The notes beneath the pieces were generated by a model that worked only from the letters and a program-made list of their open reading frames with translations, ran no database searches and was not told where the DNA came from. From Enterocloster clostridioformis (GTDB lineage: Bacteria; Bacillota; Clostridia; Lachnospirales; Lachnospiraceae), in contig NZ_JAIWZC010000002.1 in assembly GCF_020297485.1 (NCBI RefSeq), forward strand, positions 310,001-374,000: a stretch of 64,000 nt of DNA, read 5' to 3'. Positions 26,050 to 61,189 of this stretch are shown here, piece after piece (within the stretch, counting starts at the first letter, position 1; each line of letters starts with the position of its first letter). The translations under genes and the position numbers were made by a program.

Positions 26050-27210
26050 TCAAATACGTTGCACAGTCACAGCCGCATTTGGCGGCAGACCAAGTTTGAT
26101 AAGATTCTTTTCCCTGTTCTTTGGCGTTTTCCAGTGTTTCCATATGCACATGCGCAGTCGATACCGAATCTGTCCGTCCATTTTTGCGCACAGCCTTTTC
26201 ATGCTTCCGATTTTGAAATAATTTATCCACCCTCGGATAAGCCGGTTGAGTTTCCCAATTTTATAACCATTGCCCACTCCCCAGCTCCTGCTTGTATATT
26301 TCTTCATCTGCGCCTTGAACTTTGCTGCCGCTTTCGGGTGTGGTCTGGCTTTGTACCCTTTGGCAAATGAGTCATAGTAAAATCCAAACCCCAGATACTT
26401 AATGCCCTTTGGTTTATCAACCCTGCTCTTTTCCGCGTTCACTTTCAGTCCAAGCTTTTCCTCTATAAACCGAGCCACGCTCTTCATTACCCGCTCTGCC
26501 GCCTGTCTGCTCCCGACCATTATAATAAGGTCATCTGCATACCGGACGAAATCCAGCCTCCTTGCTTCCAGTTCTTTGTCCAGCTCATTTAACATGATAT
26601 TTGCTAACAGCGGCGAGATATTTCCACCCTGCGGTGTGCCGACTACCGTATCTTCATACTCATCATCAATCATTACGCCGCTGACCAGAATCTTTCTTAC
26701 CACCGATATGACATCTCCGTCCTTTATTGTCCGTCCGAAAATCGTCATCAGCTTGTCATGGTCTACTGTGTCAAAGAATTTCGCTAGGTCGATATCCACT
26801 ATCCAGTTGTGTCCGTCATTCATCATTTCCAATGCTTTAAGGACTGCCTGCTGTGCACACCGCTTGGGTCTGAATCCATAGCTGTGGTCGTGAAACTGCT
26901 CCTCAAATATCGGGGTAAGCACCTGTGCCACCGCCTGCTGTACAAAGCGGTCTACTGCTGTTGGCACTCCAAGATTTCTTGTACCACCATCGGGTTTGGG
27001 TATCTCCACCCTGCGGACTGGCTTCGGCTTATACTTCCTCGTCCGCAACTGTTCCTTAATGTTTTCGCCGTTTTCCGAAAGATATGCGCCAAGTTCTTCA
27101 ACGGTCATCCCGTCCACGCCTGCCGCTCCTTTATTCCTTACGACTTGCAGATACGCCGCATTTAGATTATCCCTGCTTAATATCTGCTCCATGAGACTGC
27201 TTGTGTCCAT
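26050..27210 (-). pseudogene. ltrA: Group II intron reverse transcriptase/maturase, C-terminus cut off by the prophage
   Basis: Starts at ATG 27210 (MDTSSLMEQILSRDNL) after AGAAAGGAAACAACGC. All seven RT blocks appear present, with FVRYADDLIIM as the catalytic YADD box, plus most of the maturase X domain (GWINYFKIGSM). The frame ends in VTVQRI six codons past NLIKLGLPPNAA. Intact relatives continue for about 45 more residues, so the true 3' end was displaced. The break coincides with the predicted phage terminus TGTGACTG. The missing part should lie on the other side of the prophage. Confidence 0.9.
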
Positions 27211-27690
27211 GCGTTGTTTCCTTTCTGCCCCTTTTGCCTTTGCCGCCTTTGAAGTCATCGACAGGCGTATGCTCCGGCTACGAAGTGGAACGTACTTCAA
27301 CTGATTGATTGTTCAGCCCTTCGCTCCGTCCCCATTACAGGAACTTCCTCACTACTATGGCTTCTGCTGACTTCTCACAATTCGTTGTTACTACGGCTAA
27401 TGAGACCGCCTGTGAGACCTCCCCAGTTAAGGTGCGTGTTCTTTTCCTCCATGTACCTGCCGCATTTACTCGTACTTCCGGCAACCTTTTGGACTTCAGT
27501 GCCTTTTGCCACCTTATCCGTATTTCCGAGCCTTATATGCGGTTCCTGTCCGTCAGGTCAGAGGTTTGCTTACAGCTTCTTTCAGATTCCGTCTCACGGC
27601 GGACACCCTTGCTGTTCGGCTATGTGCTTCGTTGTTGCCTACGCGCACTTGGGACTTTCACCCATTAGAAAACGCCCATGCTGGGCAAAC
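26072..27690 (-). mobile_element. Group IIC intron, 3' part displaced by prophage insertion
   Basis: The 5' end is placed at 27690, reading GTTTGCCCAGCATGGGCG, with the typical domain I start and TAATGGGTGAAAGTCCC shortly after. About 480 bp of structured non-coding RNA (27211-27690) precede the maturase. The intron begins directly after a terminator stem and T-run, the target preference of class C introns. Domains V and VI are absent from the window because the phage interrupts the maturase. Confidence 0.85.
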
Positions 27691-27767: not shown

Positions 27768-28418
27768 TCAAAGAGAATAATTCTCCTGAATCTGCTCTTT
27801 TACATTCAGTATATCCTTCTGGAGCATTTCAATGGCCCGCTCCGTATCACGTTTTTCCAGGGCCTCAATGATTTCCCTGTGGTAAAAGCTGTTGGATTCG
27901 GCATTCTTCTTCCAGGCTGTCTGGAAATATTGGGAAATATACGAGCAGGATTTTTGAAGGGCCGCGGCAATCACATCGCATATGTAACTGTTTCCACCCA
28001 TCTCACAGAGCTTTAAATGAAAATCCGTGTTCCGGTTCCAATGGATGGCCACCATCCTCTCGTGGTTATCCTTTGTGATGGTGTCCAGCTGTCTTAAATG
28101 TTCTATCTGCTCAGGGGTAATCCTCTGGCACAGCCGCCTCAGGTTGCCTGTCTCCACATCAATTCTGAACTCCAGAAGATCCAGTATCTCCTTCAAGGTC
28201 ACCGGAACCACCTGATAGCCCACCCTTGGTATACTTTTCAGTACATTATCCTTGCACAGCTCAATAAGGGCCTCCCGCACCGGCGATTTGCTCATGGCAT
28301 ACTTTTCCATGATTTCCCCTTCATGGATGATATCGTTAGGCTTATAGATACCTTCTTCTATCTCCCGGTAGATTCCCTCCACCACGGTTTCTTTCAGGGT
28401 CTTCTTTGTTTTCATCAT
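27768..28418 (-). CDS. GntR-family transcription regulator (FadR/FCD subfamily)
   Basis: 216 residues. The N-terminal winged helix has EGEIMEKYAMSKSPVREALIELCKDNVL, the GntR signature. The C-terminal FCD ligand domain has LLEFRIDVETGNLRRLCQ and a metal-type His pattern (WNRNTDFHLKL). It ends at the terminator used by the group IIC intron. Its ligand and targets are unknown; the next gene upstream on the same strand encodes a flavodoxin-ferredoxin protein. Confidence 0.9.
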   Translation of the reverse strand: MMKTKKTLKETVVEGIYREIEEGIYKPNDIIHEGEIMEKYAMSKSPVREALIELCKDNVLKSIPRVGYQVVPVTLKEILDLLEFRIDVETGNLRRLCQRITPEQIEHLRQLDTITKDNHERMVAIHWNRNTDFHLKLCEMGGNSYICDVIAAALQKSCSYISQYFQTAWKKNAESNSFYHREIIEALEKRDTERAIEMLQKDILNVKEQIQENYSL

Positions 28419-28520: not shown

Positions 28521-29285
28521 TTATAAAAACAGCTCATTTTCCCGTCTGATATCCCTGACAGAAGAAAGCTTCTGCTCCAGCATGGCGCAGGCCTGCTCAG
28601 GCAGGCTTCTGGCCTTCACCGGACAGACGGAAATGCAGCGCATACAGAGGATGCAGCGGGACTGGTCCGTTGAGGAAGGATTGCTCACAGGAATGGCCTG
28701 TACAGGACATCTGGCAGCGCACAGCCCGCAGGATATGCAGGATGCGTTGGTAAGCGGAATCACCGGCATCTGCTTCCAGTCACGGTAAGGACAGTTTCCG
28801 GGAACCTGGGGCTCCTGCCAGCCGTCCCCTTCCAGCTTTTCCAGAATTTTGGCCGCAAAGTCAGCCATTTCCTTCTGGTCCCTGCCGTCCGGCCGGCCTG
28901 CCGCAACGTCCCGGACCATGGAGTGTTCTGCCAGCAGCGCTGTCCCTGCCCCAATCCTGAATCCCTGCGCCTTTAAGCAGTCGTCCAGTTCCAGCAGGGC
29001 GTCCTCAAAGGCCCTGTTGCCGTAGACAGCCGCCGTCACTGCCGCTGCCCCGCCGCCTCTCAGATATGTAAGCTTCTCCGCCGCATATCCGGGTATCCTG
29101 CCGCCGAACACAGGCACACCCACAATTACGGTATCCTCCGGTCCAAAGGAATACTCTCCCTCCAGGCTGCAAAGGTCCACATCCTTTACCTTCTTCCCCA
29201 TCTCCATGGCCAGGCTGAGACAGGCTTTTCTGGTTCCGCCTGTGGGGCTGAAATACACAACGGTTATATGTTCCATCTTATTCAT
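28521..29285 (-). CDS. EFR1-type flavodoxin-ferredoxin fusion protein
   Basis: 254 residues from ATG 29285, which follows GGAGGTAACAGC; an upstream in-frame ATG at 29315 lacks a site. The N-terminal flavodoxin fold has VVYFSPTGGTRK as the FMN phosphate loop and VGVPVFGGRIP. The C-terminal third has two 4Fe-4S motifs, CISCGLCAARCPVQAIP and CILCMRCISVCPVKA. It is a soluble electron carrier for anaerobic metabolism. It stands between the GntR gene and the aldolase operon; a functional link is not evident. Confidence 0.9.
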   Translation of the reverse strand: MNKMEHITVVYFSPTGGTRKACLSLAMEMGKKVKDVDLCSLEGEYSFGPEDTVIVGVPVFGGRIPGYAAEKLTYLRGGGAAAVTAAVYGNRAFEDALLELDDCLKAQGFRIGAGTALLAEHSMVRDVAAGRPDGRDQKEMADFAAKILEKLEGDGWQEPQVPGNCPYRDWKQMPVIPLTNASCISCGLCAARCPVQAIPVSNPSSTDQSRCILCMRCISVCPVKARSLPEQACAMLEQKLSSVRDIRRENELFL

Positions 29286-29501
29286 GCTGTTACCTCCGGA
29301 ATTTTGTATATTCATTCGATATTCTAGTTATTTTATCACATTATGAGCGGAAAAGCATCACGTATCTGCCGTTTACCGGAGCCCAGGCATGTCCATGAGG
29401 ACATCAGTATACTAGATTTTTTACAACGATATACCCGTCTTTGATTTTTCGTTCCTGCATGAACCTTTACATGGCCGCGCATTGTCAATACAATACTATA
29501 A

Positions 29502-30512
29502 CTATAGCTTATTTTTTGATAATTCGTAAGCAACATCAACAATCATATCTTCCTGTCCCCCAACCATGCCGCGGCGTCCCAGTTCTATAAGGATATCTTT
29601 GATATCTATACCAAACCGGTCTGCGGCCCGGCGCGCGTGAAGAAGGAAGCTTGAATAGACCCCTGCATACCCCAGCATAAGGGAATCTGTGCGGATTACC
29701 TGCGGACGGCGCATCAGCGGCTCCACTGCTGTCGAAGCCACATCCATCATCTGATAGATATCCGCATTAATATCATAACCCATACGGTTAAGAACCGTAC
29801 ACAACACCTCAATCTGGGTGTTCCCCGCGCCGGCTCCCAGTCCCCTGCATGTGCCATCAATATATTCTGCACCCGCCTCAAGGGCAGCCAGACTGTTGCC
29901 CATAGCCAGCCCCATGTTGTTATGAGCGTGAAATCCGATGGGGACACTTACTGACTCCTTTAATGCTGAGATACGCCTGCGTACATCATCCGGAACCATA
30001 TACCCGGCGGAATCTGCCAAATTAATATAATCAACCCCTTCCGCCTCAAAAATTCTTGCCTGCTCCACAATCTTGTCCGGTTCCGCCATATGGGACATCA
30101 TCAGGAATCCTGCAACAAACAGGCCCTTGCCTTTGGCATACCGTATATGCTGAATCGATACATCCGCCTCTGTAACATGGGTTGCCACTCTCACTGCCCT
30201 GATTCCTGTATCCTCCGCCCGTTTCAAATCCTCTATCGTGCCCACGCCCGGCAGAAGCAGCACGGTAAGCTTGGCATTTTTAATCACCTCACTGGCCGCA
30301 CGCAGCAATGTCAGTTCATCGACGGCAGAAAACCCGTAATTAATGGATGAACCGCCAATTCCATCCCCATGGCTCAGCTCTATAAAATCCACTCCGGCCC
30401 TGTCTAACCCGCCAGCTATCGCCTTCACCTGTTCAACTGTAAAACTATGGCTTACGGCATGGCTGCCATCCCGCAGGGTTGTATCTATTAAATTAATCCT
30501 TCTTCCACTCAT
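29502..30512 (-). CDS. dmpG: 4-hydroxy-2-oxovalerate aldolase
   Basis: 336 residues. The N-terminal [17 protein letters not shown] holds the metal-binding Asp and catalytic Arg of the DmpG/MhpE/BphI family. [21 protein letters not shown] and [14 protein letters not shown] are further signature strings. It cleaves 4-hydroxy-2-oxopentanoate to pyruvate and acetaldehyde. The start overlaps the end of the acetaldehyde dehydrogenase gene by four bases (ATGA), matching the known channelling pair. It is the last gene of the operon. The C-terminus is the usual dehydrogenase-interacting domain. Confidence 0.95.
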
Positions 30513-31390
30513 GCCATCTCTTCCTTTCCATTCAGCAGTCTGGCCGCCACCTTTTCAGCCGTTGCCACAGCCGCCTGGTTAATAATATCCAGATTACCGG
30601 AATAGGCCGGAAGAAAATCTCCCGCACCTTCCACTTCTACAATAACCGTAACCTTATTTCCGTCAATAACCGGAGGCACGCGCAGACGGTAGCCCGGAAC
30701 ATAACTTTTTACTTCTTTTACAATTGCTTCTACTGATTCCCTTATTCTTGCTACATCCGGAGTCTTAACCAGTGCATATATTGTGTTGGTCATCATTAAC
30801 GGAGGATTAGCTGGATTTAATACAATAATAGCCTTTCCTTTATCCGACCCCGCCACTATCTCCAGCGCCCTGGACGTAGTCTCCGTGAATTCATCTATAT
30901 TGGCCCTGGTTCCTGGCCCGGCACTTTTAGATGAAAGTGCTGACACAATCTCGGTATACTCTGAATCAGCTGCACGATTAATCGCATAAGCGATAGGAAC
31001 CGCGGCCTGTCCACCACAGGTCACCATGTTAAAGTTATCTGTATCAGATGGCAGGCTGTCCAGATTAACACATGGCACCACATAGGGACCAACTGCAGCC
31101 GGTGTCATATCCATAACAATTTTTCCCGCCTGCTTCAAAATAGGCGCGTTATGTAAATGTGCTTTTGCACTGGTTGCATCAAAAACAATTCGGATTTCAT
31201 CATCAGCAGCCACTGCATCCACGCCTCTAATCGAAGTTTCAAACCCCAGTCCCGCAGCCCGCTTTATCCCCTCAGACTCCACAATACCGGCCATCAGCTT
31301 CATTTCCAGGTTGCTGCTCTTCATTATCTTATACATCAGATCGGTTCCTATATTACCTGGACCGATGATACCTGCTTTTATTTTTTTCAC
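30509..31390 (-). CDS. dmpF: Acetaldehyde dehydrogenase, acylating
   Basis: 293 residues. [15 protein letters not shown] is the NAD-binding loop and [10 protein letters not shown] holds the catalytic Cys125. It converts acetaldehyde, CoA and NAD to acetyl-CoA, and in this family forms a heterotetramer with the aldolase so that acetaldehyde is not released. The length fits DmpF/BphJ. Start at 31390, 18 bases after the permease stop, with AGGAGGCATTTTCTGTG. Confidence 0.95.
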
Positions 31391-31408
31391 AGAAAATGCC
31401 TCCTAAAA

Positions 31409-32680
31409 TTAAAATGTAAATCCTAATACACCGTAGACAAATGTTGCCACAACCGTCATACCCAATCCAATCAGCGACTCATACGGAATAATCTTAAGCC
31501 TTTCTTTGATTGACAGCTGCAGCGTTCCTGCACTGATATGGAAGAAGCTGCCATGGGGAAGACAGTCAAATACACAGCAGCCTGCATGAATCATTACTGC
31601 GGCCTGGACCGCCGTCACCTCTAAGGAAAGGATGGTTGGGCCGAATACCTGGGATGCCACGGTAGCTCCTGCTACACAGGATGCGGTAGCCCCACCCATA
31701 ACAATACCAGACAACGGCGCCAGGATATATCCGGGGACTCCGGATACCTCCACAAGGTTAATCAGTGTATCTTTCAGTCCGGAATTAGAGATAATACCTG
31801 ATATGGTTCCTGTTCCCAAAAGAAGCAATACAATGCCGCTCATTCTCTGAATACCCGTATTGGCGTACTTCAACATCTCCTTGGGCTTTCTGATAGCGAT
31901 GGCGCCAATCACTCCTCCTATGGGCAGAGCTACAATAGGATCCATGGTAATATTGCAGATTGGACGGAGCATCAGCAGAATAATTGTGCAAAAGGGTCCG
32001 GCCAGCGCACGGCCAATGGAAGGAAGCTGCTTCATCTCAATAACCGCACTATTGACAGGCTTGGAACCCACCATTTCACCCTTATTCTTAAGTACTGTCA
32101 TAAATATATATGTAAATGCAATTCCAGCTAATGCAGGAATCATTCCCCCCAGCACAACAGAGGTCATGGGAATACCCAGATTCTCTGATAAGGCAATGGT
32201 ATTCGGATTAGGAGAAATAATATTACCGGCATGGATACCTCCAATCAGGGCAATAGTCGCAGCCGCCCTAGAGTATCTGGTAGAAGCAGCGATATCCAGG
32301 GCAATGGGAGCCACAATTACCACTACCACATCTCCAAAGGTTCCTACCGCCTGAAGGACCCATGCAGAAAGAATGATTGCCAGAAGAGCAAAACGACTGC
32401 CCATCTTTACAACAATCGTATGAGCAATGGTTTCCGCCGAACCAGATTCAATCAGGAATCCGGCCAGCATCCCGGCTGCAATGATACGCAGGATACCGGA
32501 CGCCATGCCGCTTCCGCCGGACACCATCAGGCCGACTGTTTCTGACAGTCCTGCCCCTCCAATCAGTCCGCCTGCCAATGCGCCCAGCATCATGCCATAT
32601 ACCGGCGGGACCTTCAAAATAATTAATATAATTGCTATTACAAGTCCGGCGGCAGCGCCTAATGTACTTATTGTTGCCAT
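31409..32680 (-). CDS. GntP-family sugar-acid permease
   Basis: 423 residues with about 12 hydrophobic segments. GGIHAGNIISPNPNTIALSEN is a GntP-type motif, and the C-terminal ends with a long hydrophobic helix (GLGMTVVATFVYGVLGF). The family takes up gluconate and other aldonates with protons. Its place between the dehydratase and the two-enzyme cleavage module suggests that it imports the substrate of the dehydratase, probably a hydroxylated carboxylate. Confidence 0.88.
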   Translation of the reverse strand: MATISTLGAAAGLVIAIILIILKVPPVYGMMLGALAGGLIGGAGLSETVGLMVSGGSGMASGILRIIAAGMLAGFLIESGSAETIAHTIVVKMGSRFALLAIILSAWVLQAVGTFGDVVVVIVAPIALDIAASTRYSRAAATIALIGGIHAGNIISPNPNTIALSENLGIPMTSVVLGGMIPALAGIAFTYIFMTVLKNKGEMVGSKPVNSAVIEMKQLPSIGRALAGPFCTIILLMLRPICNITMDPIVALPIGGVIGAIAIRKPKEMLKYANTGIQRMSGIVLLLLGTGTISGIISNSGLKDTLINLVEVSGVPGYILAPLSGIVMGGATASCVAGATVASQVFGPTILSLEVTAVQAAVMIHAGCCVFDCLPHGSFFHISAGTLQLSIKERLKIIPYESLIGLGMTVVATFVYGVLGFTF

Positions 32681-32709
32681 AATATACCCCCGTCATATTG
32701 TCTATCTGA

Positions 32710-34389
32710 TCAACACTGAATTACCGCACCTTTGTCTGCGGAAGAAGCCACTTTGGAATAAAGCCTTAAATAACCATTCGGAATCTCTTTTTCCGGTTTT
32801 ACCCAATGTTTTCTGCGCTCACTGATGACCTCATCCGGGACATGGAGTTCAAGCTTTCCATCTATAACATCAATCAGGATCTCATCTCCGTCCTCTACAA
32901 GGGCCAGCGGACCGCCTTCTGCTGCTTCCGGCGAGATATGCCCTACAAAGCATCCGTTATTTGTCCCGGAAAAACGTCCGTCCGTAATAAGGGCCGTATC
33001 CATTGCCAATCCCATGCCATAAATATACTTCATGGCCTTAAACATCTCTCTCATTCCGGGGCCTCCTTTGGGTCCCTCGTATCGAATAACCACAACCTCC
33101 CCCTTCCGGATCACACCACCCAGAATCGCTGTTTCCGCTTCTTCCTCTGAATTAAAGCATCTGGCCTTTCCCGTAAAACGGTGGAGAGGAGGAGCAATAG
33201 CACCCGGTTTAGAGATTGCTGTATCAGGCGCCAGATTTCCTGATAATACGGCAACACCGCCTGTTACGGAGAATGGATCATCCACTGTCTTAATGATTTC
33301 ACGGTTCTCCGGATACCAGTACACCTGCTTTTTAAGGTTTTCATCCACAGACTCCCCGGTACATGTGACGGCGCTGCGGTCAATAATATCAGCCAGATGA
33401 TCCATTACCCGCGAGATTCCGCCTGCGCGGTAAAATGCTTCCATATCCCACTTCGCTGCCGGATTCACTTTCGCAATCTGAGGTGTTGTCAGATTCAGCT
33501 TTCTGAACTCCTCCACCACGTTCATATCCAGTTCCGCCTCATTGGCAATGGCTGCAATATGAAGTACAGCATTGGTAGACCCGCAGATCGCCATAGTTAC
33601 TTTAATAGCATTGCGAATAGACTCCTCTGTGATAACCTTTCTTGCCGTAATGTTGTTCATTACCAGTTTCACAATAGCGCGTCCGGATTCAAAAGAAGAC
33701 TTCAGGCGTTCCCCATAAGGAGCCGGTATCAGGGCGCTTCCAGGCAGGCTCATACCCATTGCTTCCGACACACAGCACATGGAATTTGCAGTGCCCAGGA
33801 ATGAGCAGGACCCACACCCCGGACATGCCGTATTCTCAAGTGCGCGGTATTCTTCCTCTGTAATCTTCCCGGAACGGGTCATGCCCTTTGCCTCATCAAT
33901 GGATGTCAGGTCTGATTTCCTGCCATCAAATTCGATTCCCCCCAGCATGGGACCGCCAACGCATACAATAGCCGGAATATCCAGACGCGCCGCAGCCATA
34001 AGCATACCGGGAACTATTTTATCGCAGGAAGCCAGAAGAACAATGCCATCAAGCCGGTGGGCCTGCACCATAACCTCAATGGAATTACAGATAATTTCCC
34101 TTGATGGAAGAATATAATTCATGCCTATATGCCCCTGCGCCACTCCATCACAGCAGCCAATTGTTCCGAACTCTACCGCAGTTCCCCCCGCACTGTAAAT
34201 TCCCTTTTTTACAAACTCATTCACCTGATTCAGATTAAAATGTCCAGGAACGCAGGTATTCCATGTATTGGAAATACCTATAAGCGGCTTGTGATCCAGT
34301 TCATAATCAGAATACCCCATAGACTTAAAGAGAGAGCGGTAAAAGGGACTATCCTCACCATGCATAATTTCATTGCTTCTAAATTCCAT
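32710..34389 (-). CDS. IlvD/Edd-family dehydratase
   Basis: 559 residues. Family iron-sulfur ligands are visible: NTCVPGH (Cys46), SCDKIVPG (Cys122) and CPGCGSCSF (Cys192/195). The C-terminal ITDGRFSGTNNGCFVGHISPEAAEGGP is also typical. These enzymes dehydrate 2,3-dihydroxy acids to 2-oxo acids. A biosynthetic ilvD role is less likely because no other branched-chain genes are nearby and the gene leads an operon with a permease and an aldolase module. Start at 34389 after AAGGAGGATATGC. Confidence 0.9.
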   Translation of the reverse strand: MEFRSNEIMHGEDSPFYRSLFKSMGYSDYELDHKPLIGISNTWNTCVPGHFNLNQVNEFVKKGIYSAGGTAVEFGTIGCCDGVAQGHIGMNYILPSREIICNSIEVMVQAHRLDGIVLLASCDKIVPGMLMAAARLDIPAIVCVGGPMLGGIEFDGRKSDLTSIDEAKGMTRSGKITEEEYRALENTACPGCGSCSFLGTANSMCCVSEAMGMSLPGSALIPAPYGERLKSSFESGRAIVKLVMNNITARKVITEESIRNAIKVTMAICGSTNAVLHIAAIANEAELDMNVVEEFRKLNLTTPQIAKVNPAAKWDMEAFYRAGGISRVMDHLADIIDRSAVTCTGESVDENLKKQVYWYPENREIIKTVDDPFSVTGGVAVLSGNLAPDTAISKPGAIAPPLHRFTGKARCFNSEEEAETAILGGVIRKGEVVVIRYEGPKGGPGMREMFKAMKYIYGMGLAMDTALITDGRFSGTNNGCFVGHISPEAAEGGPLALVEDGDEILIDVIDGKLELHVPDEVISERRKHWVKPEKEIPNGYLRLYSKVASSADKGAVIQC

Positions 34390-34417
34390 GCATATCCTCC
34401 TTATAAAGATGTTTTTT

Positions 34418-34434
34418 GTTCTATATTATAGAAC
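34418..34434. promoter_or_regulatory. Perfect palindromic operator, probable IclR site
   Basis: GTTCTATA-T-TATAGAAC, eight-base arms. It lies 10-26 bases downstream of the predicted start of the dehydratase operon, where a bound repressor would block elongation or promoter clearance. Confidence 0.75.
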
Positions 34435-34450
34435 TTTATTCTATATTGTA

Positions 34451-34479
34451 ATAGTATATTGTTTTTATAATTACGTCAA
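34451..34479 (-). promoter_or_regulatory. Promoter of the dehydratase operon
   Basis: On the minus strand: TTGACG (34479-34474), 17-bp spacer, TACTAT (34456-34451). Confidence 0.7.
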
Positions 34480-34599
34480 TGACAATTAAACACAAAATTA
34501 CAAATCATTTTTGTACATGTTGTATAAGTTAAAAAATAAAACGGTTGAATTATTCTGCTTAAGATGATAAATTACTATTTAGATAACAGGAGGTATATT

Positions 34600-35385
34600 A
34601 TGGCAACAACAAAAATCATCCAATCTTTAGAGCGCGCCATGTCCATTTTGGAACTTTTTCAGAACAGTGTGGTAGAATTAAGCTTAAAGGACATTTCCGA
34701 GAAGTTGGAATTAAATAAAAGTACCACCTTTGGCCTTGTGAACAGTCTTGCGGCACTGGGCTATCTTTTACAGAACGAAGATAATCAAAGGTACTGCCTT
34801 GGGCCTAAGATATTGTGTCTCACCAATGCGCTTAAAATGAATAATGTCCTGATACGGATTGCACATCCTTTTCTTGAACAGCTCTCTCACAAATATCATG
34901 AAACGGTACACAGTGCAGTACAGTCCGATAACAGCGTCATTTACCTGGATAAAGTAGAATCGGACTCATCTATTTTTATCAACACTCAAATGGGTGTTAA
35001 AAACTACATGTATTGTACCGGCGTAGGCAAATGCCTTTTGTCTTACAAAACAGAAGCACAAATTGACCAAATCCTTTCCTTCCCCCTCAAGGCAAAGACA
35101 TACAATACAATCACCCGGAGAGAAGCGCTATTAAACGAGCTGAAGCTAAGCCGGGAGCGCGGATATTCTATGGATAACGAAGAAATTGAAATTGGTCTCA
35201 CATGTGTGGGTTTCCCTGTTTTTAAAGGTTTTGAAGATCCTGGCTTTGCCATCAGTATATCCGGAGCAACCGGCAGAATTCTGGACAAATTACATAGTAC
35301 AGATCTGATCCACGACATGCAGGCTGCTGCCGCAGCAATGTCATGGCAGATCTATAATTATCAGCTTCCTGATGTCAACCTATGA
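34600..35385 (+). CDS. IclR-family regulator
   Basis: 261 residues. The ATG at 34600 follows AACAGGAGGTATATT. The N-terminal winged helix has LSLKDISEKLELNKSTTFGLVNSLAALGYL. The C-terminal effector domain has CTGVGKCLLSY and GYSMDNEEIEIGLTCVGFPVF. It is divergent from the dehydratase operon and probably controls it through the palindrome at 34418. IclR regulators commonly sense sugar-acid or aromatic intermediates. Confidence 0.93.
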   Translation: MATTKIIQSLERAMSILELFQNSVVELSLKDISEKLELNKSTTFGLVNSLAALGYLLQNEDNQRYCLGPKILCLTNALKMNNVLIRIAHPFLEQLSHKYHETVHSAVQSDNSVIYLDKVESDSSIFINTQMGVKNYMYCTGVGKCLLSYKTEAQIDQILSFPLKAKTYNTITRREALLNELKLSRERGYSMDNEEIEIGLTCVGFPVFKGFEDPGFAISISGATGRILDKLHSTDLIHDMQAAAAAMSWQIYNYQLPDVNL

Positions 35386-49029: not shown

Positions 49030-50412
49030 CTACAGCGCATACTTCCCGCGCTTCACAAACCTCCCGGCCTTTTCAACCACCACCTGATGGTCCTTCACCA
49101 CCTGGGTGCCGCGCAGGAACACGCTCTCTATACGTGCCGTCAGCTTCCTTCCCTCAAAGGGGGCGTAGTCCACATTCTGCACCTGGTCCGCTGCCGTGAC
49201 CGTATCCTCTACACCGGTACGCATGACAACGATATCCGCGTCGCTTCCAGGGGCAATGACTCCCTTTTCGGGGTACATTCCATAGAGCTTGGCGGGATTT
49301 TCCGACAGAAGCTGGCACATCCTTTCCCTGGTAATCCTTCCCGCGTCCACGCCGTAGGTGAAGAGCAGCGTACCCCTTGTCTCTACCCCCGGCATTCCTC
49401 CCGGAATCTTTGTAAAGTCATCCTTCCCCAGCGCCTTCTGCGCTGTGGTAAAGCTGCAGTGGTCCGTGGACACGGTCTGGATGGTCCCGTCCGCCAGAGC
49501 CCTCCACAGGCGCTGGGAATCCTCCGGTTTCCTCAAAGGAGGCGCGCACACATATTTTGCCCCTTCCATGCCCGTAAGCCCGTACAGGCTGTCATCCATA
49601 AGCAGATACTGGGGGCAGGTCTCCGCGTATACCTTCTGGCCCCTTCTCCTGGCCTCCATAATGACGTCGCAGCCCTCCCGGCAGGTAAGGTGCACCACAA
49701 TCACAGGGATATCCGCCACTTCCGCCAGCCTGAGCAGCCTGTCTATGGCCTCCGCCTCTGCGGCAGCGGGTCGGGTGGCCGGGTGGCTTTCCACGCCCAT
49801 CCTTCCGGCAGCCTTTGCCTCTGCCTGCAGGGCAGCTATCATGCCGCTGTTCTCACAGTGAACACCGGTGATTCCTCCCACCTCCTTAAGCCTGCGCAGA
49901 ATTTCAAAGATGGTTTTATCGTCCACCTGGGTATCGTATGTCATGTACAGCTTAAATGAGGTGATTCCCTCTTCCATCATGTCGTCCAATTCCCTGCTGA
50001 CCGATGGGTTCCAGTCCGATATGGACATGTGGAATCCGTAATCGCAGGAGCACCTGCCGTCCGCTCTTTCATGCCAGTTCCTGAGGCCGTCAGCCAGGCT
50101 CTCCCCTGTGTACTGTGTTCCGAAGTCCACGATGGTGGTGGTGCCGCCCCTGACAGCCGCCTTGGTTCCCGTGGCAAAATCATCTGCCGTGACAGTTCCC
50201 GCCACATGGAGGTCAAAATGGGTGTGCGCATCAATAAATCCCGGAAAGAGAAGGCAGCCTTCCACATCCACAACCCGGGTATCCTTGTCTGCCAGATGCC
50301 CGATTTCCTCCCCGGTTCCCACTGCCGCCACCTTTTCCCCGTCAATGAGCACATCTGCCTTGAAACTGCCGCTTCCGCCAACAACAATTCCGCCTTTTAA
50401 TACCTGCTTCAT
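49030..50412 (-). CDS. hydA: Dihydropyrimidinase/D-hydantoinase-type amidohydrolase
   Basis: About 460 residues from ATG 50412, ten bases after AGGAG; ATG 50418 in frame is also possible. Metal ligands: DAHTHFDLHV near the N-terminus, the lysine in GITSFKLYMTYD that would be carbamylated, and VHCENSGM and VVHLTCREG. It opens cyclic ureides by hydrolysis. In the purine cluster it is the candidate ring-opening enzyme for a hydantoin-like intermediate. Last gene of the minus operon. Confidence 0.93.
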   Translation of the reverse strand: MKQVLKGGIVVGGSGSFKADVLIDGEKVAAVGTGEEIGHLADKDTRVVDVEGCLLFPGFIDAHTHFDLHVAGTVTADDFATGTKAAVRGGTTTIVDFGTQYTGESLADGLRNWHERADGRCSCDYGFHMSISDWNPSVSRELDDMMEEGITSFKLYMTYDTQVDDKTIFEILRRLKEVGGITGVHCENSGMIAALQAEAKAAGRMGVESHPATRPAAAEAEAIDRLLRLAEVADIPVIVVHLTCREGCDVIMEARRRGQKVYAETCPQYLLMDDSLYGLTGMEGAKYVCAPPLRKPEDSQRLWRALADGTIQTVSTDHCSFTTAQKALGKDDFTKIPGGMPGVETRGTLLFTYGVDAGRITRERMCQLLSENPAKLYGMYPEKGVIAPGSDADIVVMRTGVEDTVTAADQVQNVDYAPFEGRKLTARIESVFLRGTQVVKDHQVVVEKAGRFVKRGKYAL

Positions 50413-50471
50413 ATCCATCACTCTCCTGTTCCGTCTGTCAATATAAATATATTTCCCAGCTTGCTCTCCTT

Positions 50472-50560
50472 CTGCCATGGCTTTCAGACGTGTTACCCTT
50501 GAGCAGTAACTGCCATGGCCTTCGGACGTGTTACCCTTGAGCAGTAACTGCCATGGCCTT
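50472..50560 (-). repeat. 38-bp tandem repeat of the GNAT gene 3' end
   Basis: CTGCCATGG recurs at 50472, 50510 and 50548, 38 bp apart. Each full unit repeats the last codons of the GNAT gene including its stop. The extra copies are downstream of the real stop and untranslated. Confidence 0.85.
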
Positions 50561-51106
50561 CAGCCGTTCCCCGTCAATCCGGTACACGGTCCAGTCACTC
50601 ATGGCCTGGGCGCCCATTCCCAGATAAAAGTCAATGCTTGGCTTATTCCAGTCCAGGCACCACCACTCCAGACGTCCGCAGCCCCGCTCCACCGCAATGG
50701 CTGCCAGCCGGTTCAAAAAGGCGGTTCCGAAGCCCTGGCCCCGGTACTCCGGACGCACATACAAGTCCTCCAGATAAATGCCGGACCTGCCCAGGAATGT
50801 GGAGAAATTATGGAAGAACAGCGCAAATCCAACTGCCTCCCCATCCTTCATCCCCAGAATCACCTCTGCTTTTTCCTTTTCAAACAGCCACTGATTCAGC
50901 AGCTCCTCTGTAGCCACCACCTGGTCCAGCATTCCCTCGTAATCAGCCAGCTCTTTTATGAACCTGAGAATCAGGTTTACGTCCTGAGGTTCTGCAAACC
51001 GGAATTCAACGGCCTTATTCGTCATTCTATGTCCCATTCCGTGCTCCATTTCATGCTCCATTCCGTGCTCCATTTCATGCCCTGTCCCTTCAAGGTTGTT
51101 GTCCAT
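50531..51106 (-). CDS. GNAT-family N-acetyltransferase with Met/His-rich N-terminus
   Basis: 191 residues. Start at 51106 is supported by GAGGAGACGATATT. Residues 9-28 form a repeat of H, E, M and G (HEMEHGMEHEMEHGMG), unusual for this family; the enzyme domain begins near residue 30. The acetyl-CoA loop is RPEYRGQGFGTAFL, and the C-terminal part resembles spermidine/diamine acetyltransferases (WCLDWNKPSIDFYLGMGA). Inside a purine operon it might acetylate a diamino acid or amine intermediate; this is inference. Confidence 0.88.
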   Translation of the reverse strand: MDNNLEGTGHEMEHGMEHEMEHGMGHRMTNKAVEFRFAEPQDVNLILRFIKELADYEGMLDQVVATEELLNQWLFEKEKAEVILGMKDGEAVGFALFFHNFSTFLGRSGIYLEDLYVRPEYRGQGFGTAFLNRLAAIAVERGCGRLEWWCLDWNKPSIDFYLGMGAQAMSDWTVYRIDGERLKAMAVTAQG

Positions 51107-51179
51107 AATATCGTCTCCTCATGCGGAACAAGCGAAAAGCAGATGGACTGCCTTTCGCTGTTCATTTCCAATGTTATTT

Positions 51180-53762
51180 TTACCTCTTCTTTGAATAATA
51201 AGTGTCATCCATGGGAAGCGCTGTCCGCAGAATATGGTCCTTTGCGTAATAAGCTCCCTGTGCCGCCGGGGCGGTCGGTATGGTGGCTATCTCCCCGATT
51301 CCCTTTGCGCCGTACGCAAAGGGCAGCAGCTCTTCCTTCTCCACATAGATTGCATGGATATCAGGAATCTGGGTGGAGCGCATGAGTCCCAGGGTGCCGT
51401 ATTTAGCCTGGGGAACGCCATTCTTTAACGGGAAGTCCTCGGTCAGGGCATAGCCCAGTCCCATGAGAACGCCACCCTCAATCTGCCCCTGTATGGAAAT
51501 GGGGTTCACTACCTTTCCGGAGTCATGGGCAGCATACACTTCCTTTACCCTGCCGTCGTCGTCTAACACCACCACATGGGTTGCAAATCCGTAAGCCACA
51601 TGGCTCTTTGGATTGGGCACATCCGCCCCCAGCTTATCCGTGGGGTCAAAGAATTCCGCAAAGAACTCACGGCCTTCCAGCTGGCTTAAGTCCCCTCCCG
51701 CTTCCTGCAATGCCTCATTCAAATCAGCGGCAGCCATCCTGATAGCCTCGCCTGTAATCAGGGTCTGGCGGGAACCGGATGTGGTTCCTGAATCAGGCGC
51801 CACCTCGGAATTGGCCCCCATATTCCTGATCAGTTCCTTTCCAAGGCCGGTTGCCTCGGAAACCATCTGTACGAATACAGTGGCGCATCCCTGTCCGATA
51901 TCGGAGGCAGCGCTGTATAACTCAATCTTTCCGTCGTGGACAGCCAGCTTTGCCCGGCCTTTGTCGGGAAGTCCCACGCCCACGCCCGCGTTCTTCATGG
52001 CGCAGGCGATTCCGGCTCTGCCCGGATTGCTCTCATAGGCATCCTTTACAGCCAGAAGGGTTTCCTTAAGGGCTGTGGAGCAGTCCGCAATCTGCCCGTT
52101 TGGAAGCACCTTGCCCGGTTCAATGGCATTGCGGTAGCGGATTTCCCATGGGGAAATCCCCACCTTCTCCGCTAAAAGGTTGATGTTGGACTCCAGGGCA
52201 AATTCACTCTGGCACACACCGAATCCGCGGAACGCGCCCGCGGGCGGATTATTGGTATAATAGCCGAAACCGCGGATATCCGTGTTTTGGTAGCAGTAAG
52301 GCCCAACAGAGTGGGTACACGCCCTCTCAAGCACGGGGCCGCACAGTGACGCATAGGCCCCTGTATCAAAATAAATCTCACAATCCAGTCCGGTAAAGAT
52401 ACCGTTCTCGTCGCATCCCAGGGTAAACGTGCCCTCCATTGCATGGCGCTTTGGATGGAAGCTTAAGGATTCCTGTCTGGAGAATACCACCTTTACCGGC
52501 CTCTGCACCTTGAGGGCTGCCAGGGCTGCTATGTGCTGTGTGGATACATCCTCCTTGCCGCCGAAGCCGCCGCCCACCAGCTTGTTTTCCACAACCACCC
52601 GGTCCGGATCCCAGCCCAGCATGATGGATATTTCCTTCCTGGTATCGTAGACGCCCTGGTCTGTGGAATATACCTTCACGCCGTCCTTGTAAGGAAAGGC
52701 CACCGCGCATTCCGGTTCCAGGAAAGCGTGTTCGGTAAAGGGCGTGCGGTAAGTCTGGGTCACCACATACCTGGAATTCTCCAGAGCCTTCTTTGCATTC
52801 CCCCTGGTAACATGACGGCTCTGGCACAGGTTTCCCTTCTCGTGTACCTTGGGCGCGTCCTCTGCCATGGCTTCCTGGACAGAGCACACGGGTTTCAGCT
52901 CCTCATAATCAATCTTTACCATCCTCTTTGCCTTCTCAAGGATGTCTCTGGACTCGGCAACCACCAGACAGATAGCATCGCCCACGCACCGGGTGATATC
53001 TCCCTTTGCAATCATTACGTCCCAGTCCTGCTGGAGATGGCCTACCTTGTTATTGGGGACATCCTCGGCCGTAAGCACAGCCAGCACGCCAGGAAGCGCC
53101 GCCGCTTTCTCGTAGTTGATATCCAGAACCCGCGCCCGCGGATACCGTGAGCGTACAGCCGAAGCATATACCATTCCCTCCATCACCACGTCATCCGGGT
53201 ACTCGCCGTAGCCCAGCACCTTTTCCCGCACATCCAGGCGGAAGGCGCGCTTGCCCACGCCGTACTCGTCTCCCTTTTCCAGGGACTCCTCAATCCGGGC
53301 GTCGCCTCTCAGGATGGCTGCCGTCAGCTGGATGCCTTCGATAATCTTCTTATATCCTGTACAGCGGCAGATATTTCCCTTTAGCGCTACCTTGATTTCC
53401 TCCTCAGTGGGGTCCGGGACGCGGTCAATCAGCGCCTTTCCGGCCATCACCATGCCCGGCGTACAGAATCCGCACTGCACGGATCCCATTGCTCCAAAGG
53501 CGTACACAAAGGCTTCCTTTTCCGCGTCGCTTAACCCCTCCGTGGTAATGATGTTTTTGCCCACTGCCCGCCTGGTTGTCAGGACACAGGACTTGACGGC
53601 CTTTCCGTCCACTACGATTGTACATGTACCGCAGGCGCCTTCGCTGCACCCGTCTTTGACAGAATGAAGGTGAAGGTCATCCCTCAGATAGCGCAGAAGC
53701 GGTTTATCCTCGCTGGTGCAGCGTTCCACTCCATTTACTGTAAAACAAAAGTTCTCTCCCAT
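51180..53762 (-). CDS. Selenium-dependent xanthine dehydrogenase-type molybdoenzyme
   Basis: 860 residues. The first 75 residues hold a 2Fe-2S domain (CSEGACGTC, then CVLTTRRA), followed by a second 2Fe-2S domain (CGFCTPGM and CRCTGYKKI). The rest is the molybdopterin-binding part, with GGGFGGKEDVSTQHIAALA and the C-terminal AYGAKGIGEIATIPTAPA holding the catalytic Glu. There is no FAD domain, so electrons must leave to a partner such as YgfK or the ferredoxin. Related to E. coli XdhD and clostridial selenium-dependent enzymes. No in-frame TGA; selenium would be in the cofactor. Confidence 0.93.
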   Translation of the reverse strand: MGENFCFTVNGVERCTSEDKPLLRYLRDDLHLHSVKDGCSEGACGTCTIVVDGKAVKSCVLTTRRAVGKNIITTEGLSDAEKEAFVYAFGAMGSVQCGFCTPGMVMAGKALIDRVPDPTEEEIKVALKGNICRCTGYKKIIEGIQLTAAILRGDARIEESLEKGDEYGVGKRAFRLDVREKVLGYGEYPDDVVMEGMVYASAVRSRYPRARVLDINYEKAAALPGVLAVLTAEDVPNNKVGHLQQDWDVMIAKGDITRCVGDAICLVVAESRDILEKAKRMVKIDYEELKPVCSVQEAMAEDAPKVHEKGNLCQSRHVTRGNAKKALENSRYVVTQTYRTPFTEHAFLEPECAVAFPYKDGVKVYSTDQGVYDTRKEISIMLGWDPDRVVVENKLVGGGFGGKEDVSTQHIAALAALKVQRPVKVVFSRQESLSFHPKRHAMEGTFTLGCDENGIFTGLDCEIYFDTGAYASLCGPVLERACTHSVGPYCYQNTDIRGFGYYTNNPPAGAFRGFGVCQSEFALESNINLLAEKVGISPWEIRYRNAIEPGKVLPNGQIADCSTALKETLLAVKDAYESNPGRAGIACAMKNAGVGVGLPDKGRAKLAVHDGKIELYSAASDIGQGCATVFVQMVSEATGLGKELIRNMGANSEVAPDSGTTSGSRQTLITGEAIRMAAADLNEALQEAGGDLSQLEGREFFAEFFDPTDKLGADVPNPKSHVAYGFATHVVVLDDDGRVKEVYAAHDSGKVVNPISIQGQIEGGVLMGLGYALTEDFPLKNGVPQAKYGTLGLMRSTQIPDIHAIYVEKEELLPFAYGAKGIGEIATIPTAPAAQGAYYAKDHILRTALPMDDTYYSKKR

Positions 53763-53778
53763 TTTATGCCTCCTGCCT

Positions 53779-54324
53779 CTACGCCTTTACTGTGAAAATG
53801 CCGTCGGCATCCAGTATGATTCCTCTTGGACATTTGACTGCACACATACCGCAGGCGATACACTTTGCTTCATCGATTACCGCGTGGTTATTCTCTATCC
53901 TGACGGCATCCGCCGGACAGTTCTTTACACAGATGCCGCAGGCAATACAGCCCACCGAGCAATCCTTCCTTGTCCGGGCTCCCACATCCTGGTTCATACA
54001 TGCCGGATAAACCGGATATTCCGGCGTGGTAATGCGTATCAGGCCCTGGGGACAGGCTTTCACGCACAGGCCGCAGCCCACACATTTGCCCCGGTCCACA
54101 TCCGCAATCCCAAGGCCATTTATATGAATGGCGTCCATCTTACAGGCCGTCACGCAGCTTCCCATGCCCAGACATCCCCATTTACATTTCAGTATGCCGT
54201 CCGGATGGTCTGCCAAGATCTGCCTGCAATCCCCGGTCAGGCCCTCACGCGGAATAACTGCCTCTGCATGACAGCCCCCCAGGCATTGCACCACAGCTAC
54301 TTTTTTATTGCGCTTTTGTGCCAT
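53779..54324 (-). CDS. Polyferredoxin with several 4Fe-4S motifs (RnfB-like)
   Basis: 181 residues. Cys motifs: CLGGC near the N-terminus, CKWGCLGMGSCVTAC, CVGCGLCVKACP, CIACGICVKNCP and CIACGMCAVKCP. This is a soluble iron-sulfur carrier that probably accepts electrons from the xanthine dehydrogenase, 16 bases downstream. Start at 54324 after AAAGGAGAAGAATAAA. Confidence 0.9.
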   Translation of the reverse strand: MAQKRNKKVAVVQCLGGCHAEAVIPREGLTGDCRQILADHPDGILKCKWGCLGMGSCVTACKMDAIHINGLGIADVDRGKCVGCGLCVKACPQGLIRITTPEYPVYPACMNQDVGARTRKDCSVGCIACGICVKNCPADAVRIENNHAVIDEAKCIACGMCAVKCPRGIILDADGIFTVKA

Positions 54325-54388
54325 TTTATTCTTCTCCTTTCATTATTCTCACAAAAGAATAACGTTACTTTTTTAACAAGCCTTTGCT

Positions 54389-54423
54389 AAAGGAGTCCCC
54401 ACATTTTCATTGAGGACTCCTTT
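54389..54423. other. 10-bp stem hairpin between ygfK and the ferredoxin
   Basis: AAAGGAGTCC (54389-54398)/GGACTCCTTT (54414-54423), 15-base loop. No T-run follows on either strand. It might stabilise or process the operon mRNA or attenuate it. Confidence 0.55.
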
Positions 54424-54463
54424 GTACGGCAATTCGCACACATTATAACAGTTCAGACACTAT

Positions 54464-57448: not shown

Positions 57449-57628
57449 ATTATTCTTATCCTCCTTTATAACCAGACCAGGTCCCAGCACCGGATACTGC
57501 GGACATAGTCCGCAGGCTCTCCATCCGGCTCAGCCGCCCGGGAGACTCAGTCGTCCCGAGGTGCCGAAATCCCGCCGCCCTGCAATCGGATATCACTTAT
57601 AAATTATACATTGTGTCTGTTTTGGCCG

Positions 57629-58960
57629 TTAACCGTTGATGGAATGGGCCAGCTTCTTTGCCTCTTCCCTTACCTCGTAAAGGATCTTCTCCTCATCCAG
57701 TCCCACAAGCTCCCTGTTCTTCATCAGAACCTTGCCGTTACATACCGTGGTCACCACGCTTCTTCCCGTCATGCCGAACAGGATGTGGCCGTTGATATTG
57801 GATGCATCCATAGGAGTCAGCGGGATGTAGTCAGTGACAATCACGTCAGCGGCAGCGCCTTCCTTCAGTACGCCTAACTGCTTCTTAAAATAGCGGTTTG
57901 CAATCTTCGCGTTGCCCTCAAAGAGCATCTGAGGAACCTCGCCCCAGGCTGCATTGGCATCACAGAGGTGATGTTTGTGAAGAACATTGGCCACCTTAAA
58001 GGATTCTGTCATATCGTGGGTATAGCCGTCTGTTCCCAGACCGGTGAGAATTCCTCTGTGCACGATTTCCATGGTTGGCGGGCATCCGCATGCGTTGCCC
58101 ATGTTGGACTCAGGGTTATGTACCACCATTGTATCCGTATCCTTAATCAGCTGCATCTCATGAGGATTTACGTAAATGCAGTGGGCCAGCAGGGTCTTTT
58201 CCCCAAGGATATTGCAGTCCATCAGACGATCCACGATTCTCTTGCCGTACTTCTTAAGGCAGTCGTGCAGATCCTCGATTCCCTCCGCCACATGGATGTG
58301 GTATCCCACCTCAGCCGGCTTGTTGGCTGCTGCCAGCTCCATGGTCTCATCCGAGATGGTGAACTGGGCGTGCATCCCCATCATTCCCGCAATCATGTCC
58401 GTATCGTCTGCCAGGGCATGTTTGATCCAGGAAGCGTTCTCCATAACAGCCGCCCTTGCCTTATCCATACCGTCCCTGTCGGATATCTCATAGCAGAGAC
58501 AGGTTCTGACGCTCATCTCCTTTGCGGCGTCCTCAATGGCAAACAGGGAATCCTTTATCTCCCCAAAGCTTGCGTGGTGGTCAAATACAGTGGTGACTCC
58601 GTTCTTAATGGAATCCAGGTAAGTGGCCCTGGCGCTCTGGCGGGTCTGCTCACCCGTCAGATGGCGGTCAATGGTCCACCACATGCCGTCCAGGATATCC
58701 AGAAAACCCTTTGGATCATAACCTTTAATAGAAAGACCTCTTGCCATGGCACTGTAGATGTGCTCGTGGGTGTTGATGAAGGCCGGCATGATGACGCCCC
58801 CCTTTGCGTCCACATATTCGGCATCATGGAACTCTTTCTTAATCTCTTCCAGTGTGCCCACCTTCTTTATTGTGGTACCGTCCATTGCCACTGCCCCATT
58901 TTCAAAAAATGGCTGTTCTGGGTCTCTGGTAACCAGGCGACCGTTCCCAATCACTAACAT
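57629..58960 (-). CDS. ssnA: SsnA, aminohydrolase of purine degradation
   Basis: 443 residues. Metal ligands and active-site strings: NTHEHIYSAMARGL, FDHHASFG, HAQFTISDE, HIHVAEGIED, LLAHCIYV and VVHNPESNMGNA. It belongs to the amidohydrolase family with guanine deaminase-like members. Probably deaminates or hydrolyses a purine-derived intermediate. Start at 58960 after AAAGGAGAGAGGTT. First gene of the minus operon, 138 bp or more before ygfK. Confidence 0.93.
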   Translation of the reverse strand: MLVIGNGRLVTRDPEQPFFENGAVAMDGTTIKKVGTLEEIKKEFHDAEYVDAKGGVIMPAFINTHEHIYSAMARGLSIKGYDPKGFLDILDGMWWTIDRHLTGEQTRQSARATYLDSIKNGVTTVFDHHASFGEIKDSLFAIEDAAKEMSVRTCLCYEISDRDGMDKARAAVMENASWIKHALADDTDMIAGMMGMHAQFTISDETMELAAANKPAEVGYHIHVAEGIEDLHDCLKKYGKRIVDRLMDCNILGEKTLLAHCIYVNPHEMQLIKDTDTMVVHNPESNMGNACGCPPTMEIVHRGILTGLGTDGYTHDMTESFKVANVLHKHHLCDANAAWGEVPQMLFEGNAKIANRYFKKQLGVLKEGAAADVIVTDYIPLTPMDASNINGHILFGMTGRSVVTTVCNGKVLMKNRELVGLDEEKILYEVREEAKKLAHSING

Positions 58961-59035
58961 AACCTCTCTCCTTTACATTTCATAAACTTTAATTCATAAA
59001 CTTTAATAAGATAGAACAGGACTTCCTGTACCCCT

Positions 59036-59064
59036 ATACTAACACCATACAAATCCATTTGCAA
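59036..59064 (-). promoter_or_regulatory. Promoter of the ssnA operon
   Basis: TTGCAA (59064-59059), 17-bp spacer, TAGTAT (59041-59036) on the minus strand. Confidence 0.6.
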
Positions 59065-59115
59065 GCAGAAAATGCAAAATTTTTTAGATATTCAAAATTT
59101 TTTTGTAAAAACCTC

Positions 59116-59143
59116 TTGCAATTCCTTTTTTTTGTGCTATGAT
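59116..59143 (+). promoter_or_regulatory. Promoter of the regulator-ygeX-ygeY genes
   Basis: TTGCAA (59116-59121), 16-bp spacer, TATGAT (59138-59143). The same unusual -35 hexamer as the divergent ssnA promoter. Confidence 0.6.
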
Positions 59144-59233
59144 GGAATCATAAACAACGCATCACAACTTTGCGAAATGTTTATTGTACAAAGTCACCAG
59201 ATTTGAAGAGTCCGAGGAAAAGGAGGTTAAGCC

Positions 59234-59899: not shown

Positions 59900-59923
59900 T
59901 GATAATAAGGAGGATTATGTAAG

Positions 59924-61132: not shown

Positions 61133-61189
61133 CAATCACCTGTATCACACCCAAAACAAATATCAATGTATAATGGAGGAAATGAAGAA

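Follow-up and report, generated by a model that had tools for sequence, protein, structure and literature searches.

A candidate 5-deoxypentonate catabolic operon in Enterocloster clostridioformis, with an IlvD/Edd-family dehydratase beside an aldolase-dehydrogenase pair

What does an operon degrade when its dehydratase resembles an enzyme of branched-chain amino-acid synthesis and its two remaining enzymes resemble the end of an aromatic pathway? The question is raised by a five-gene locus in a 64,000-nucleotide stretch of the Enterocloster clostridioformis genome (G000:C2:310001-374000, from a 5.87-Mb two-contig genome; hereafter the window), which annotation alone would file under branched-chain amino-acid synthesis and aromatic degradation. 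The complex formed by its aldolase and dehydrogenase has so far been linked to the degradation of aromatics and also of steroids. We put at roughly one in two the probability that the locus is an inducible catabolic operon that would convert a short deoxy sugar acid, namely a 5-deoxypentonate, likely of the L series, to pyruvate and acetyl-CoA, as predicted from sequence. The five genes are as follows.

29502..30512, minus strand: 4-hydroxy-2-oxovalerate aldolase of the DmpG/BphI family, with DmpG communication domain
30509..31390, minus strand: acetylating acetaldehyde dehydrogenase of the DmpF/BphJ family, GTG start (NCBIfam and Pfam)
31409..32680, minus strand: GntP-family permease, predicted sugar-acid uptake (Pfam and NCBIfam)
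32710..34389, minus strand: IlvD/Edd-family dehydratase (P0001), predicted aldonate (2,3,4-trihydroxypentanoate) dehydratase, carrying the clade motif DGRFSGTNNGCF
34600..35385, plus strand: divergent IclR-family regulator (NCBIfam and Pfam; start taken from alignment with the genus genome G011)

All five genes have intact open frames at these coordinates, and NCBIfam and Pfam agree on the identity of each, which confirms the five identities given in the initial annotation as well as its divergent IclR, the latter lying on the plus strand opposite four minus-strand genes. Those four are tightly packed, with gaps of 29 and 18 bp followed by a 4-bp overlap of dehydrogenase and aldolase. The acetaldehyde dehydrogenase scores 428 bits with TIGR03215 (cut-off 282) and adjoins the aldolase gene, whose product reaches 501 bits with its equivalog model (cut-off 286). 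The permease is a distant GntP member, matching Pfam GntP with 81 bits, since its score of 76 with the gluconate symporter model falls far under the cut-off of 293. For the regulator, 34600 is a more probable start than 34564, as G011 keeps both the GGAGG and this ATG.

The genes that would mark an aromatic pathway were sought by phmmer (E 1e-3) across every frame of the window, each type with one to three queries. Neither an FAA-hydrolase-type hydratase nor an extradiol-dioxygenase-type protein was found, the dioxygenase search being confined to the window, and the same check returned no protein of the short-chain dehydrogenase/reductase (SDR), SMP-30, DapA, HpcH or RraA type; each of the five operon genes appeared only as its expected single match. 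A Pfam search of the whole genome yielded a single FAA-hydrolase protein, on the other contig, for which the best NCBIfam match, under its cut-off, is the 2,4-didehydro-3-deoxy-L-rhamnonate hydrolase model; the 2-oxopentenoate hydratase model is not in its match list. The initial annotation had stated that no dienoate hydratase or dioxygenase is present, and this holds for the hydratase in window and genome and for the dioxygenase in the window.

Several lines of evidence separate P0001 from the biosynthetic enzyme IlvD. When the genome was searched with P0001, seven matches came back: besides P0001 there are three sequences of almost full length, at 46, 43 and 40% identity, and three short fragments. 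One of these matches, the biosynthetic IlvD, lies at another locus (L048), scores 797 bits with the IlvD equivalog model TIGR00110 (P0001 661) and adjoins open reading frames (ORFs) judged by eye to resemble LeuB and IlvB, and no branched-chain genes lie beside P0001. In a tree of 32 chosen sequences, P0001 and 17 others stand apart from eight IlvD-group rows (fork support 92/86, unstarred). The catalytic-serine motif reads SG[T/S]N[N/R]G in 18 of 18 clade rows, and SGA or SGG in all eight IlvD-group rows. In P0001 it is SGTNNG, with Thr two positions after the Ser, as in the sugar-acid dehydratases of the RlArDHT type. According to the available text on D-xylonate dehydratase, the corresponding Thr492 (Thr482 in RlArDHT) helps to build the substrate site and is Ala or Gly in other family members (PMC5770437). 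P0001 is thus not a spare IlvD, given the separate clade, the Ser-Gly-Thr/Ser motif and the genome's own IlvD elsewhere, and a redundant IlvD was rejected on these grounds; a catabolic, non-IlvD dehydratase is supported as a prediction. The cut-off of the L-arabinonate dehydratase model NF009559 is not reached (428 bits, cut-off 882), and among 858 plasmid records, all under 60% identity, no close relative was found, the genes annotated there as L-arabinonate dehydratase being about 32-37% identical. The C-terminal His of the RlArDHT subfamily is absent from P0001, from 51 of 54 clade frames and from the sole annotated AraD control (L148).

Loci carrying the acetaldehyde dehydrogenase and 4-hydroxy-2-oxovalerate aldolase genes (hereafter the pair) were surveyed in two samples, in which some lie on short contigs and species may be shared. 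Four aldolase queries over genome contigs gave at least 574 loci; within 6 kb, the best 80 of these include an FAA-hydrolase-family hydratase in 63 and a clade dehydratase without hydratase in three, from Clostridiaceae BL-3 (L062), Bacillota CTSoil_073 (L071) and Anaerovorax odorimutans (L072). In a separate phylum sample the dehydrogenase was found in 43 of 397 genomes, own included; the 43 loci outside the own genome carry the hydratase in 38 cases, a clade dehydratase in one (L161, genome G1157), an IlvD-like dehydratase in one (L225, with TRAP-like genes also beside the pair) and neither in three. Together, a hydratase is present in 101 of 123 loci; the four of these loci that are paired with a clade dehydratase all lack it. 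Pairing occurs in five groups (the window's genus, L062, L071, L072 and L161), and the four outside dehydratases are mutually 61-74% identical. In the tree the paired dehydratases do not form one group within the 18: L062 falls with L072, L071 stands alone and the window groups with L040. The proposal that a sugar-acid dehydratase stands here in place of the dienoate hydratase is supported as a prediction by the absence of the hydratase from paired loci. The remnant of a meta-cleavage operon was rejected, the hydratase and, in the window, the dioxygenase being missing and a dehydratase recurring in that place.

Further loci with the pair were noted in these surveys. L056 (5616-11020), one of the 80, combines the pair and an IclR gene with a nickel-pincer isomerase of group 22 and a galactarate/altronate-type dehydratase with GD_AH domains, without hydratase, so that the same aldolase may also be supplied by another family of dehydratases; in L057 (6832-11017) the pair and an IclR gene adjoin an isomerase of the same group. 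Seven of the 43 loci (L211, L212, L213, L214, L219, L220 and L229) have a non-clade dehydratase within 6 kb of a hydratase and the pair; the dehydratases of L211 and L214 are nearest IlvD and adjoin the aldolase, and L084 is similar. L069 (2944-11035) carries the pair, a 2-oxopentenoate-hydratase-like gene under its cut-off, a BenE-type benzoate transporter, a ferredoxin-like ORF (by eye), a molybdopterin-binding-domain protein, a NadC-like protein and a 477-aa protein, with similar-looking ORFs in L051 and L124; it may be an aromatic pathway that lacks the usual dioxygenase.

The neighbourhoods of the dehydratase itself were compared from the other side. P0001 was searched at set thresholds (E<=1e-170 in the family sample) and matched in 8 of 397 genomes of the family, 18 of 391 of the class, 18 of 344 of the order, 9 of 348 of the phylum and 7 of 17 of the genus, own included. 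In the class sample, 12 of the 18 genomes, scoring 568-579 bits, were left out of the clade; the four of these that were read (L144-L147) have dehydratases nearest IlvD, with SGA motifs. For each of the 44 remaining genomes, some on short contigs, the stretch around the gene was taken, and the addition of L062, L071, L072 and second copies brought the scored clade genes to 54, one gene (L184), a frame without the motif, being dropped. Within 5 kb, where labels derive from single query proteins and absences are lower bounds, these 54 genes adjoin an IclR gene in 28 cases, a LarA-type isomerase in eight, the pair in seven, an HpcH-type protein in six (one also with the pair), a GntP-like permease in five (L133 and L140 included), an SDR with SMP-30 lactonase and RraA-like protein in five, and a DapA-type aldolase in four. 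The isomerases of L143, L056 and L057 exceed the cut-off of the group 22 nickel-pincer isomerase model. LarA relatives are described, in the portions available, as racemising or epimerising 2-hydroxy acids, D-gluconate and D-mannonate among them (PMC7583248, PMC11770544), so that these neighbours fit aldonate substrates. The clade probably acts on aldonates, because some of its members adjoin SDR, lactonase and RraA types, DapA and HpcH aldolases and nickel-dependent 2-hydroxyacid isomerases. The nearest dehydratases outside the genus (G925 and G933, 80% identical) lie beside an IclR protein of 60-61% identity and an HpcH-like protein. As a separate observation, the family f17 loci L152-L158, L160 and L177-L180 combine an IclR gene with a clade dehydratase (65-68% identical to P0001), with no sought aldolase type within 5 kb.

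In the aldolase the catalytic residues R14, D15, H18 and Y286 are present, and by our own count on a DmpG alignment L85, L87 and Y286 correspond to L87, L89 and Y290 of BphI. In the available text, BphI makes and uses solely the 4S enantiomer of 4-hydroxy-2-oxopentanoate, with L87 proposed to sit close to the C4 methyl, L89 limiting aldehyde length and Y290 being proposed to block the 4R enantiomer (PMC3962088, PMC4012138). All 83 aligned aldolases, six of them dehydratase-paired, share L85 and Y286, and both residues lie outside the two stretches that served as search patterns, where conservation follows by construction; the L87 position is Leu in five paired aldolases and Ile in one. None of 18 columns checked separates paired from hydratase-linked aldolases, although in a scan across every column 74, 102 and 264 did. 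Since the specificity residues of the BphI type are kept, the paired aldolases should use the same compound, (4S)-4-hydroxy-2-oxopentanoate. By our own Cahn-Ingold-Prelog derivation, the C4 centre of a 5-deoxy-D-pentonate has the R configuration and keeps it on 2,3-dehydration, so that 5-deoxy-D-ribonate should give the 4R acid and a 5-deoxy-L-pentonate the 4S product. A 5-deoxy-L-pentonate is preferred over 5-deoxy-D-ribonate for this reason and is the most likely predicted substrate, with an ordinary L-pentonate as its chief rival.

The proposed sequence of events would begin with relief of IclR repression at a palindrome by the substrate or an intermediate, and with import by the GntP permease of a 2,3,4-trihydroxypentanoate (5-deoxypentonate) whose C4 would most likely have the L configuration. 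The dehydratase, judged by clade, motif and context, would remove water across C2-C3 to give (4S)-4-hydroxy-2-oxopentanoate, which the aldolase would cleave to pyruvate and acetaldehyde, the dehydrogenase of the same complex oxidising acetaldehyde to acetyl-CoA with formation of NADH. Aldolase cleavage and the conversion of acetaldehyde to acetyl-CoA with NADH within one complex are established for this family. Pyruvate, acetyl-CoA and reducing power would thereby become available with no ATP spent on a kinase. This chemistry, from 2,3,4-trihydroxypentanoate through 4-hydroxy-2-oxopentanoate to pyruvate and acetyl-CoA, had been put forward by the initial annotation and is upheld as a prediction by clade, pairing and aldolase residues. 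More broadly, and tentatively, these loci might represent an undescribed pathway for 5-deoxypentonates that are probably L-configured and may stem from the oxidative breakdown of L-fucose or L-rhamnose. In it, GntP, MFS or TRAP carriers would take up the acid, a nickel-pincer isomerase would optionally epimerise C2, enzymes of a new IlvD/Edd subfamily would carry out the dehydration, and the pair would complete the conversion to pyruvate and acetyl-CoA without ATP.

The candidate regulatory elements lie between the divergent genes.

34418..34434, no strand: palindrome GTTCTATATTATAGAAC, 17 bases, putative operator for IclR that overlaps the promoter-like match
34425..34452, minus strand: sigma-70-like promoter match for the operon (ATTACA, 16, TATAAT), the top-scoring minus-strand match

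The promoter match by itself says little, because 13 such matches occur in the region and 10.7 (standard deviation 3.8) in shuffles. An exact copy of the palindrome occurs in G011 and, on the opposite strand, in G002; 0.07 matches with up to three mismatches are expected per window. In G933, with its 80% identical dehydratase and 61% identical IclR, two sites with three mismatches each were found, ATTCTATATAATAGAAT starting 68 bp before the dehydratase ORF and GTTTTATAATATAGAAT immediately before the IclR ORF. L071 has two sites with three mismatches, neither at a start.

A number of observations weigh against a 5-deoxypentonate operon. P0001 exceeds the cut-off of TIGR00110 (660.9 bits, cut-off 618.15). 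Pairing is the minority state when sampling starts from the dehydratase, the pair adjoining it in 4 of 44 genomes (own, G002, G011 and G1157), and it is absent from the stretch examined around the 80% identical dehydratases of G925 and G933. None of the four sought aldolase types lies within 5 kb of 33 of the 54 clade genes; 20 of these 33 come from f17 genomes, 13 of them with an IclR gene and otherwise only other dehydratases labelled. The SDR/lactonase and DapA-type contexts suggest a clade spanning several aldonates, an ordinary pentonate included. The best palindrome matches in G925 and in the pair-carrying loci L062, L072 and L161 have 4-6 mismatches, a background level. The operon, finally, is rare: the five-gene order is identical in the window, G002 and G011 (3 of 17 genus genomes), and conservation is weak in the family, where few genomes carry the dehydratase and none of the seven others that do has the pair within 5 kb of it.

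These points bear differently on the competing explanations. The SDR, lactonase and DapA, HpcH and RraA types near some clade relatives are typical of non-phosphorylative aldonate routes and favour an ordinary pentonate, which to suit the stereochemistry of the aldolase would be an L-configured one such as L-arabinonate and would pass through 4,5-dihydroxy-2-oxopentanoate to pyruvate, glycolaldehyde and glycolyl-CoA. This is doubtful, since the hydrophobic equivalents of BphI L87, proposed to lie by the C4 methyl, and L89 are conserved, glycolyl-CoA would have no obvious use, and glycolaldehyde as a BphI substrate has 0 occurrences in the available text of PMC3962088. The same two residues are the small-aldehyde form and count against a 6-deoxyhexonate or other longer aldonate, from which the aldolase would release lactaldehyde or another aldehyde that the acylating dehydrogenase, in the case of lactaldehyde, would not be expected to accept; such a substrate is quite improbable, despite the HpcH-like protein in the place of the pair in G925 and G933 and a characterised L-arabinonate dehydratase that, in the portions available, prefers D-fuconate (PMC9795676, PMC11316719). 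There is very little likelihood that P0001 is a second branched-chain dihydroxy-acid dehydratase and an accidental neighbour of the pair: its TIGR00110 score and the IlvD-like gene adjoining the pair in L225 speak for it, and the separate clade, the separate biosynthetic IlvD and the recurrent linkage to the pair, carriers and IclR speak against it.

The initial annotation had suggested salvage, through its aldonic acid, of the 5-deoxyribose that arises from by-products of radical S-adenosylmethionine enzymes, for which the substrate would be 5-deoxy-D-ribonate derived from 5'-deoxyadenosine. A precedent exists in SalH, an IlvD-type enzyme proposed, in the available text, to dehydrate 5-chlororibonate and so to act on a 5-halo-5-deoxy-ribonate (PMC7408626, PMC5947533), by analogy with which dehydration of 5-deoxy-ribonate would not be wholly new chemistry. 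The expected 4R product stands against it, wild-type BphI being described in the parts available as specific for 4S under the control of L87 and Y290, both kept here. The published 5-deoxyribose route relies on a kinase, an isomerase and a class II aldolase; the accessible text names four other ideas for disposal, none of them an aldonate route (PMC6079011). A cluster at G000:C1:3.838-3.847 Mb (L191) encodes methylthioribose (MTR) kinase (350 bits, cut-off 275) and MtnA (424, cut-off 279) and, under their cut-offs, an L-fucose-mutarotase-like protein, a fuculose-phosphate-type class II aldolase and a DhaK-like protein, next to ABC-importer-like genes (by eye); it resembles the phosphate route because MTR kinase, MtnA and class II aldolase occur together. 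The genome's one MtnA is in this cluster, and no kinase or phosphorylase, isomerase or class II aldolase is among the operon genes. The window search found no SDR- or SMP-30-type protein, nucleosidases not being among the types sought. Radical-enzyme salvage was rejected on stereochemistry and on the other route present, and 5-deoxy-D-ribonate is an improbable substrate. In a full-text literature search, with most subscription journals outside its scope, 5-deoxyribonate-type terms occurred only as '5-deoxy-D-ribono' in fluorine papers, and 5-deoxypentonate-type terms only in metabolomics papers.

Downstream of the operon lie an EFR1-type ferredoxin gene (28521-29315), kept in G002 and with no labelled match within the G011 stretch, and a GntR regulator gene (27768-28418). 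Elsewhere, the window contains a group II intron (26050-27603) with two Rfam group II matches and an ORF that by eye resembles a reverse transcriptase, an apparent second copy of this ORF lying at L189 2319-3689, as well as a Mu-like prophage (4000-25000) and a purine-degradation-type cluster (49030-62506) with dihydropyrimidinase-like, xanthine-dehydrogenase-like and YgeX/YgeY-like ORFs, both judged by eye.

If 5-deoxypentonate catabolism is correct, a clade that scores as dihydroxy-acid dehydratase would gain an assayable function, the DmpFG-type complex would be fed from sugar acids besides aromatics, perhaps also with the galactarate/altronate-type dehydratase of L056, and 5-deoxypentonates would be nutrients for some bacteria. 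The operon shares with the Dahms-type aldonate pathways (RlArDHT, CcXyDHT) a 2,3-dehydration by an IlvD/Edd enzyme with SGT motif, followed by retro-aldol cleavage to pyruvate and an aldehyde, although its dehydratase is nearer IlvD and its end steps fall to a DmpFG-type pair. With the lower meta-cleavage pathway (DmpE-DmpF-DmpG, BphHIJ) it has in common the two terminal enzymes and those conserved residues that were checked, but it has a dehydratase and a GntP permease, and lacks the hydratase (by genome Pfam search) and the extradiol dioxygenase (in the window). The DHAP (dihydroxyacetone phosphate) shunt (DrdK-DrdI-DrdA) likewise breaks down 5-deoxypentoses with release of acetaldehyde, but by a phosphorylated route, for which a cluster of that kind lies elsewhere in this genome. 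The SalM-SalH and FdrC-FdrB systems resemble it in the proposed conversion, by an IlvD-type enzyme, of a 5-halo-5-deoxy-ribonate into a 4-hydroxy-2-oxopentanoate; they differ, SalH and FdrB being compared by description and not by sequence, in being biosynthetic or shunt pathways with halogenated substrates of the D series.

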